A model generated the notes under the pieces. It searched no databases and was not told the DNA's origin. It saw only the letters and a list, made by a program, of their open reading frames with translations. 64,000 nt of DNA from Acetivibrio sp. MSJd-27 (GTDB taxonomy: Bacteria; Bacillota; Clostridia; UMGS1840; HGM11507). Of this stretch, positions 19,483 through 21,495 are shown in pieces. Position 1 is the first letter of the stretch, and every line of letters starts with the position of its first letter. The stretch lies in assembly GCF_018918095.1 (NCBI RefSeq), contig NZ_JAHLPV010000003.1:1-64000 (forward strand), in the 5' to 3' direction. The translations under genes were made by a program, and so were the position numbers.

Positions 19483-20244
19483 TTACCCCTCCGAAGTGTC
19501 CCGAGGAAGCTGCCCCTCTCCGTCTCCCGACGGCGTCAATGACCTCTCCCTCTCCTCAGCGATAAGGTGATTGTAAAACGTACACTCCGCAACGTACATA
19601 TACGGCACGACAAAAAGTACGCCAATCCCACAGGTCACCATACTCAACAGGATCCATCCAAAAAAGCTCAGCTGCAGGAGAATCAGCTTTAATTTATTTC
19701 CTTTCATGAGCCTCCAGGCAGTTGTGTAGAGCTTTCCTGCGCGGATTTCGGGATTGTCAATGATAAGATAAAGCATTGGCATAAACCCTGCAAGCAGAAC
19801 GGAAATGCCGAACAGAACGCCTGCTATCGGAACAAGCAGTCCGTAAGCCAGCGCTGCGGTGCCGTTCTCCGCCATATACTCGGAAAACCAAAGCATTCCG
19901 CTGTTCATCAGATAGCCAAGTACATTGACCGGTATGTAATACAAGAGCGCTTTCAGATAGTAGTTCGACGCGTCAAAAATACATCCAACGGTCGGAACGT
20001 CGTCCCGGCTGTAGCGCAGCATTCCCAGCCGCAGTCCGAGATCCAGAAAGCTCTCCAGAAAAATCAGAAGAATCATTGTGATGATCCGCGCAGCTTTTGC
20101 CTCCGCCAGATAGATTTGCAGGCCATAAACAACGCCGTTAAACAGTGCGTAAAACAAAGTCAGTATGACAGCAGTTGTCCAGCGGCCGCCTAGCATATCC
20201 AAGCTTTGACTTTTTATCTCCCCAATAGAAGGTTTTATTTTCAT
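19483..20244 (-). CDS. DUF975-family membrane protein
   Basis: 253 residues with about six hydrophobic segments. The typical DUF975 end is visible: SWRLMKG-type 'TAWRLMKGNKLKLILLQLSF' followed by FFGWILLSMVTCGIGVLFVVPY and CTFYNHL. Family function is unknown. GGGGAAA precedes the ATG. A polar tail of about 20 residues follows the last membrane segment. The 104-bp tandem repeat occupies its promoter region. Confidence 0.85.
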   Translation of the reverse strand: MKIKPSIGEIKSQSLDMLGGRWTTAVILTLFYALFNGVVYGLQIYLAEAKAARIITMILLIFLESFLDLGLRLGMLRYSRDDVPTVGCIFDASNYYLKALLYYIPVNVLGYLMNSGMLWFSEYMAENGTAALAYGLLVPIAGVLFGISVLLAGFMPMLYLIIDNPEIRAGKLYTTAWRLMKGNKLKLILLQLSFFGWILLSMVTCGIGVLFVVPYMYVAECTFYNHLIAEERERSLTPSGDGEGQLPRDTSEG

Positions 20245-20286
20245 TCGGTTTCCCCACCCGTTCTATATTGTCAATGTTGTCATTAT

Positions 20287-20494
20287 ATCGCAACAACGCA
20301 GGCGGCTGTTCGTCGCCGTAGTATTGCGGTTCAATCGTTCTCCAAACGTCTTGGCATTTTTAATGCCTTAGAGGTTTGTGAGGTTATTATACCACAACAA
20401 CGAAGGCGGCGGAATGTCGCCGTAGTATTGCGGTTCAATCGTTCTCCAAACGTCTTGGCATTTTTAATGCCTTAGAGGTTTGTGAGGTTATTAT
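20287..20494. repeat. Tandem 104-bp intergenic repeat, two copies
   Basis: Copies at 20287-20390 and 20391-20494 are identical over about the last 75 bases (from GTCGCCGTAGTATTGCGG to GAGGTTATTATA). The first 30 bases vary, yet both keep a GGCG...CGCC stem with a changed loop. Each unit also has a GGCATttttaATGCC hairpin and, on the minus strand, a TATAAT box at its edge. The second copy ends two bases before the stop codon of the SLH gene. No convincing reading frame. See findings. Confidence 0.85.
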
Positions 20495-20495
20495 A

Positions 20496-21092
20496 TCATG
20501 TTTGAGGGATTTTTGCAAACACGGTATTGTATACAAGCATCGCCACTGTGCCCCGGGAAGCGGTTTCCCCTATCTTCCCCTTCGCGCGGATGGTCATATT
20601 GATTCTCTCCGCCTGCTCCAGATATAAATTCGGATAGGCATCCGGCACTTTTTTGATATCCTCACCATACCCCAACGCACACACCAGCATTTTCACAGAC
20701 TGCTCATAGAGCACGTCCCCGTCCGGCGCAAAAGTACCGTCCCCATTGCCGTCGACAACGCCCACGGACTTGGCCACGGCAATGTATCCGTTGGCCCAAT
20801 GGGTGACCGGCACATCTGAAAAACCCGTATTCCACTGTGCGGAAGCCTTTGCAGCCTGCTCCATACCCATGCAGCGCACCGTGATAGCCGCTATCTCCGC
20901 CCGGGTAATAGGGTCGTCGGGACGAAAGGTGTGATCGTCATAGCCTTGCATCAGCCCTAGGTTGTGAAGGACAGCCGCAGCTTCATACAGGTAGCTTGAC
21001 GGATCCATATCCGTAAACAGTCTCTCCTCCGCCCGGGCGCCCCAGGGCAGACAGAGCAAAAGACACAATAGGAATGCAGTAAACCGTTTCAT
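20496..21092 (-). CDS. Small secreted SLH-domain protein
   Basis: 198 residues. A signal peptide (about 1-21, LLCLPWGARA) is followed by two to three S-layer homology units: LFTDMDPSSYLYEAAAVLHNLGLMQGYDDHTFRPDDPITRAEIAAI, then FSDVPVTHWANGYIAVAKSVGVVDGNGDGTFAPDGDV and a weaker third. Nothing else is attached, so it is an SLH-only protein that could bind secondary cell-wall polymer. The start is the Met with GGAG-containing GGAAGGAGCGGAG upstream, six codons inside a longer frame. Confidence 0.88.
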   Translation of the reverse strand: MKRFTAFLLCLLLCLPWGARAEERLFTDMDPSSYLYEAAAVLHNLGLMQGYDDHTFRPDDPITRAEIAAITVRCMGMEQAAKASAQWNTGFSDVPVTHWANGYIAVAKSVGVVDGNGDGTFAPDGDVLYEQSVKMLVCALGYGEDIKKVPDAYPNLYLEQAERINMTIRAKGKIGETASRGTVAMLVYNTVFAKIPQT

Positions 21093-21127
21093 TTTCTCCG
21101 CTCCTTCCATTTTTCTGCTTTGTCCAC

Positions 21128-21218: not shown

Positions 21219-21495
21219 TAAGCATTAGGGAGTCGAACGCAATATGGTTTATACAGGCAAATGTTCCGCAATTCCGTGTCAAAATGCTCGCCAATCCGTC
21301 AGGATTGCCTGCGCTTTTTCCTTGCCTTACGAAAAAATTTGCTCTGTAAAAACTCTGCGACCCTGCACGCAGAGAAATTTTCGTTTTTTCGGTGCGTAAG
21401 GGGGAAGCAAGGCTGGCGCCTTGCAAGACCGACAATTCGAAAAGGCGGGAATTTATCAAGTGCAGGGCATATTGCCTTCGACTCTCTAATGCTTA
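21219..21495. mobile_element. MITE-like element, 277 bp, with 28-bp imperfect terminal inverted repeats
   Basis: Left end TAAGCATTAGGGAGTCGAAC... and the complement of the right end TAAGCATTAGAGAGTCGAAG... match at 26 of 28 positions. If the repeat starts at AGCATTAG, a TA dinucleotide flanks both sides, as in Tc1/mariner-type insertions. Inside are small hairpins (for example GCAAGGctggcgCCTTGC) and no plausible gene. Non-autonomous; no matching transposase is present in the window. Confidence 0.65.

Follow-up and report, generated by a model that had tools for sequence, protein, structure and literature searches.

What kind of sequence fills the space between two genes of Acetivibrio sp. 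MSJd-27 with two abutting units of about 100 bp, and how did it come to lie there? The repeat was found in a window of 64,000 nucleotides, which is the whole stretch of DNA analyzed here, and an earlier note based on its letters had taken it for a duplicated small RNA or regulatory cassette rather than a decayed gene. Our analysis leads to a partly different answer, namely that the repeat very probably consists of tandem copies of a non-autonomous, hairpin-based mobile DNA element that targets the −10 boxes of sigma-A promoters.

Layout of the array in the window

A repeat search of the window yielded two abutting 104-nt direct-repeat copies (20279–20382 and 20383–20486) with 92% identity. All 8 mismatches between the two units are confined to 31 bp (20281–20311) and the other 73 bases are identical, which agrees with the tandem 104-bp repeat of about 75 identical and about 30 differing bases described before. 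On either side of the array are two minus-strand genes, an SLH-domain protein gene with its stop codon and a DUF975 gene with its start. As already pointed out in the earlier note, the array adjoins the end of the former and occupies the promoter region, and with it the leader, of the latter. Read on the minus strand, the SLH stop codon is followed by two hairpin A–hairpin B pairs, with one TATAAT before, one between and one after them, and a further 38 nt or so lead from the last TATAAT to the DUF975 ATG. The minus-strand TATAAT, which had been noticed in each unit, is thus present and meaningful: it heads each unit and recurs at the 3' end of the array (20490–20495, 20386–20391, and 20282–20287). 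Folding of both units gave z-scores of −4.1 to −5.4 relative to shuffled sequences on either strand, better than 200/200 shuffles. The GGCG/CGCC stem, which was thought to be kept while its loop changes, is the inner part of hairpin B; its loop does differ between the units, but the gene-proximal 3' arm has changed too. The features of the locus are as follows (all on the minus strand).

20496..21110, minus strand: upstream SLH-domain protein gene, the end of which bears the host −35 (PF00395)
20513..20518, minus strand: host −35 hexamer TTGCAA, within the 3' end of the SLH gene and 17 nt from the first −10 (promoter scan and family rule)
20490..20498, minus strand: host extended −10 TGATATAAT (sequence, promoter scan, and empty sites in relatives)
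20441..20489, minus strand: unit 1 hairpin A, AACCTC-A-CAAACCTCT..hairpin..GTTTGGAGAAC (covariance model, 63.5 bits; covariation)
20386..20440, minus strand: unit 1 hairpin B, ATTGAACCGCAA..GGCG..CGCC..TTGTTGTGGTATAAT (folding, family alignment, and unit comparison)
20386–20394, minus strand: element-borne extended −10 TGGTATAAT, lacking a −35 and closing unit 1 hairpin B
20337..20385, minus strand: unit 2 hairpin A, identical to that of unit 1 (covariance model, 66.3 bits; unit comparison)
20282..20336, minus strand: unit 2 hairpin B, with diverged loop and 3' arm (sequence and unit comparison)
20282–20287, minus strand: TATAAT ending unit 2 hairpin B, with about 38 nt between it and the DUF975 start codon
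19483..20244, minus strand: downstream DUF975 membrane protein gene (PF06161, E = 2e-21)

According to the promoter scan, TTGCAA and TATAAT at a distance of 17 nt (20518–20490) form the only promoter-like site in the region 20150–20650, in two registers. The TGA of the host extended −10 is at the same time the stop codon of the SLH gene, and we infer from the sequence, the promoter scan, and the empty sites in relatives that this extended −10 was the insertion target of the array. Just upstream of the SLH gene, the window also contains a MITE-like structure (21219–21495), in which a 28-nt inverted repeat with 93% complementarity (TAAGCATTAGGGAGTCGAACGCAATATG / CATATTGCCTTCGACTCTCTAATGCTTA) surrounds 221 nt.

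Copies and distribution of the repeat family

The earlier note had proposed a search of the core against the genome and its relatives. In the genome from which the window derives (3.05 Mb, 104 contigs), BLAST with the core returned 44 matches, and a covariance model returned 43 matches at E ≤ 0.01, of which 37 had E < 1e-5. The repeat is scattered through many gut Clostridia: at E ≤ 1e-5, the model matched 40 of 391 genomes of the class, which belong to 27 of 222 genera. Some unrelated palindromes may be among the weakest of these matches (near 1e-6), many of the genomes are incomplete, fragmentary MAGs, and copies that share a genome are not independent of each other. Within one genus (g50), the copy number ranged from 0 (G196, G391, G392, and G394) to 37 matches per genome (G395). 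A search pattern built on the conserved termini of hairpin A, AACCTCACRAAN{14,42}TTYGGAGAAC, matched public genomes in at least 105 stretches; almost all of the matches listed were MAGs labelled Oscillospiraceae, Ruminococcaceae or Clostridia, and seven matches in unrelated organisms were left out as they look like chance. The exact pattern occurred in 10 of the 391 class genomes and a backward control pattern in none (0/391). Because of the roughly 40 further copies in the genome and the absence of the backward motif, the repeat in the window is far beyond chance.

Neither a scan of viral contigs (IMG/VR) with the hairpin A pattern nor BLAST of one unit against phage and plasmid sequences gave any match, and hence there is no sign of a phage- or plasmid-borne repeat. 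No Rfam family scored above its gathering score over the units, either in the window or at eight related loci. The searchable literature, which leaves most subscription journals out of its scope so that an older report is possible, gave no description of the repeat, and its sequence retrieved only animal and cell-biology papers in a full-text search, presumably through primers.

Structure and covariation of the unit

On the minus strand, the unit consists of hairpin A (AACCTCAC..GGAGAAC) followed by hairpin B, which ends in the extended −10 TATGGTATAAT. Units are about 100 bp long, with 98–127 bp in arrays. Hairpin A has the form N-AAC-CUC-A-CGAA...UUCG-GAG-AAC-N'. Covariation is seen in its inner stems and also in its closing pair N-N', where T-A, G-C, and C-G all occur. 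In the T-type (N = T), TATAAT is formed by the bases preceding hairpin A. For the whole structure in 52 non-redundant copies, the covariation score was 0.351, compared to 0.126 for shuffled and ≤0.096 for slid partners, and 178 cells were changed on both sides versus 54 after shuffling. The stems, for which a covariation analysis had been recommended, are thus not broken in homologues but kept by compensatory changes.

Hairpin B is closed by ATTGTATCATA as its 5' arm and TATGGTATAAT as its 3' arm. This 5' arm paired better with the element's own 3' arm in 26 cases and with the host TATAAT in two, with 16 ties; pairing of this middle arm with the left arm (the host −10) was accordingly rejected, the own 3' arm being better in 26 of the 28 decided cases. 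An interpretation of GGAG..TTG as a leader peptide was also considered and discarded, as its frame is broken by the unit periods of 98, 101, 104, and 127.

Arrays in the genome of the window are mosaic, with alternative hairpins placed between the same linkers, for example a module with six copies. A second hairpin module (AAAGACACGCCGTGAGCGGAAG..CTTCCGACGGCTGAGTCTTT) replaces hairpin A at L026 (about 1442–1510) and at five other places in this genome, and shares the TATAAT / ATTGAATC linkers with the hairpin A units. A diverged relative was seen at L253 (1503–1630, genome G341), where the otherwise constant CTC/GAG stem of hairpin A is changed to CTT/AAG, with TATGATATAAT on both sides.

Position and orientation relative to promoters

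Of 77 first-unit flanks, 45 had a TTGACA-like hexamer (at least 4 of 6 positions) upstream of TATAAT at a spacer of 17; the counts for the remaining spacers between 8 and 39 were 0–7. The −35 at 17 nt distinguished first units (44/75) from later units (0/23; p = 8e-8). Later units, whose upstream DNA is hairpin B, possess the TG of an extended −10 in 23 of 23 cases. Since the −35 occurs in first units and is missing from later ones, the first −10 belongs to the host and the later ones to the element. The consensus on the host side is TRTGNTATAAT, a common form of Gram-positive promoters, and the −35 at 17 nt lends strong indirect support to the transcription start predicted behind the first TATAAT.

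Based on gene calls by a simple open reading frame rule, the downstream gene was codirectional in 59 of 68 arrays (p = 4e-10). These downstream genes are unrelated to each other and include recA, tgt, yajC, ftsH, HPr, trmFO, and pcrA (named by eye from their translations). In the related G-type (ATAAG..CTTG), a −35 was found in only 1 of 22 units and there was no codirectional preference; given this type, not all of the wider family is tied to promoters. Three identical G-type units occur at different loci (L173, L174, and L176; genomes G002 and G003), where, as judged by eye, they lie not at promoters but at or near gene ends and before terminator-like hairpins.

Empty sites in related genomes

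In genus g50, a UvrD/PcrA-like helicase gene of genome G055 has a single unit in its promoter, where TGTGGTATAAT is followed by a unit ending in GATATAAT and then by the leader. The orthologous promoter is free of the unit in seven congeners (G196, G341, G391, G392, G394, G395, and G397), the −10 region of which is the same as, or near-identical to, the TGTGGTATAAT promoter of G055. A second set is provided by leaders of IS200-like tnpA genes. Two of these (L097 and L120) contain a unit directly behind TATAAT/C, with T-A as closing pair in one and C-G in the other, while homologous leaders without unit read through TATAAT or TAAAAT (L183, L184, L187, L188, window's own genome). Judged from the sequences compared, these empty sites show that units insert behind pre-existing promoters. 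Because the host −10 arm and the 3' arm of the element differ in both sets (TGTGGTATAAT and TTATGATATAAT in G055; AGTATAAT and CTGTAAAT in L097), a target-site duplication was ruled out.

A probable mobile element that targets −10 boxes

The family is dispersed and multicopy, has sharp ends, and is positioned behind a −35/−10 pair. Its units are oriented into the downstream gene, their stems covary, relatives possess empty sites, and the host target is not duplicated. It is on these observations that the reading as a mobile element is based, and the following course of events would be consistent with them. A unit, always oriented the same way, would enter an existing sigma-A promoter immediately after its −10 box (TRTGNTATAAT). 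Insertion would keep the host −35/−10 pair, and the TRTGNTATAAT at the 3' end of the element would supply a fresh extended −10, as far from the gene as the host −10 had been before; this new −10 could then become the target for the next unit. A-B-A-B arrays would arise because the element's own 3' TRTGNTATAAT is such a fresh target. From its spacing of seven nt behind the −10 (TATAAT), the unpaired A, which is position 20483 in the window, is the predicted transcription start, in which case the mRNAs would begin with hairpin A. The DUF975 gene would then be preceded by up to three −10 boxes, with the units as its promoter and leader, and the leader and tandem −10 boxes may change or stabilize gene expression, in this case of DUF975.

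The single orientation and the lack of target duplication and of terminal inverted repeats (TIR) resemble single-strand (HUH-type) transposition, and the hairpins may be the substrate of a mobilizing enzyme that acts on single-stranded DNA in the manner of IS200/IS605. Our searches found no such enzyme, and PF01797 (Y1) is missing from several carrier genomes; the Y1 family does not track the element. We tentatively suggest, as a possibility that goes further, that the element could belong to a class of mobile hairpin DNA not described before, which would recognize the sigma-A −10 region itself, perhaps while single-stranded in the open promoter complex. A guide arm (ATTGTATCATA) between its hairpins would pair with the −10, an equivalent −10 box would replace the occupied one, and promoters would serve as renewable landing sites.

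Alternatively, the units could be a repeat of the REP/BIME type that is moved by a RAYT or an IS200/IS605 (Y1) transposase. Imperfect palindromes with an unpaired base, mosaic arrays, the lack of TIR and target duplication, and the target-specific junction would all fit such an origin, as would the IS200-like elements in the genome of the window and in others. However, a GTAG/GGAG head is absent, with AAC/AAC forming the foot of the palindrome in the hairpin A alignment, and no RAYT gene flanked by hairpins was found. PF01797 is absent from the carriers G002, G054, G154, G175, and G326, Y1 does not match the copy number within one genus, and there is no consistent association with RAYT or Y1. 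Moreover, the unit at L097 and L120 is an insertion inside an IS200-like leader and not the end of an IS. We therefore regard this origin as possible but doubtful. In the genome of the window, the RAYT/Y1 search revealed only IS200-like fragments at contig ends; the start of an IS200-like transposase lies at five contig ends (L031–L035), and a multicopy IS200-like element thus probably breaks this assembly.

It also appears rather improbable that the units are structured 5'-leader or cis-regulatory RNAs, whose hairpins are kept for a role in the mRNA such as 5'-end protection, attenuation or protein binding, and whose spread is incidental. Such a role would agree with the covarying stems, with the predicted start, from which the mRNA would open with hairpin A, with the 59 of 68 arrays that run sense to the gene, and with the arms of hairpin B, which favor G-U over A-C cells (63 versus 39, p = 0.02). 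Yet the unrelated downstream genes form no regulon, orthologous promoters in congeners lack the unit, and the invariant AACCTC and the covarying −10 base are located upstream of the predicted start and thus outside that RNA. In hairpin A, A-C cells are not rarer than G-U cells (14 versus 8), and with G-U not in excess there, an RNA role of this hairpin is without independent support. Together with the participation of the untranscribed AACCTC and −10 base in the pairing, this weakly favors recognition as DNA over recognition as RNA.

The dedicated small RNA suggested by the earlier note would be a gene of about 100 nt per unit, and the −10 box and the two stable hairpins of each unit would fit it. 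This proposal is very unlikely, since later units have no −35 (0/23), the only terminator is a weak one inside hairpin B and none clearly closes the unit, the units run sense into coding genes, and Rfam gave no match; rather than such genes, the units are a dispersed insertion family before unrelated genes, behind promoters that the empty sites indicate to be older. What holds of the original interpretation is that the repeat is a duplicated cassette, for which "regulatory" is partly right, and that it is not a decayed gene. That promoter DNA was simply duplicated in tandem on the spot, with no mobility involved, can hardly be maintained. Although the second unit may well stem from unequal crossing over, as the two identical A hairpins in the window would permit, this view is contradicted for the family as a whole by the empty sites and by a unit that recurs about 40 times in the genome and is found in 27 genera.

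If the reading as a −10-targeting mobile element is correct, the element, present in about a tenth of the sampled class genomes, could spread through promoters without destroying them by supplying a new −10 box, and many host genes would gain tandem −10 boxes and a hairpin-capped leader. Its sharp target rule makes the question of how such repeats move directly testable.

Comparison with known repeat families

The unit is short, dispersed, non-coding, and mobile without an enzyme of its own, as are MITEs. It lacks their terminal inverted repeats, since its ends (AACCTCAC.. and ..TATGG/TATAAT) are not mutual inverted repeats, and also their target site duplication, which is absent at G055 and L097. 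Like REP, BIME, and REPIN sequences with their RAYT (PMC2817692, PMC3116915), the element has covarying palindromes with unpaired bases, occurs many times per genome, and forms mosaic arrays. It differs from them in that no GT(A/G)G head, inverted pairing of units or RAYT companion was found and in that its target is the −10 box of promoters.

The Correia elements (CREE) of Neisseria (PMC2649163, PMC10969869) are likewise miniature mobile elements that are located near gene starts and contribute promoter parts. They possess inverted repeats, and their ends can give rise to promoters, whereas the element described here has no TIR, targets the host −35/−10, and rebuilds only an extended −10. The mRNA of IS200 tnpA has a structured 5' end (PMC12594629), and two IS200-like elements in our dataset similarly bear a unit in the tnpA leader; there, in contrast, the unit is an insertion and is also found before unrelated genes.

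The best studied case are the BOX, RUP, and SPRITE repeats of Streptococcus pneumoniae, which are over-represented between convergent genes, at sites where they do least harm (PMC3049150). These repeats are also short, interspersed, intergenic, and hairpin-forming without association with gene function, and BOX has a module of variable copy number (PMC3049150). Unlike them, our element is situated behind the −10 of codirectional genes, and sequence, host group, and module logic differ; from BOX (boxA-boxB-boxC) it is set apart by host and layout and not by alignment. Thus, while it is neither a MITE nor a member of the REP/RAYT system, the element works like BOX, REP/BIME, and Correia sequences as a short mobile palindromic repeat. 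To land on the −10 box of working promoters and to survive by rebuilding it would be a strategy different from that of the pneumococcal repeats.
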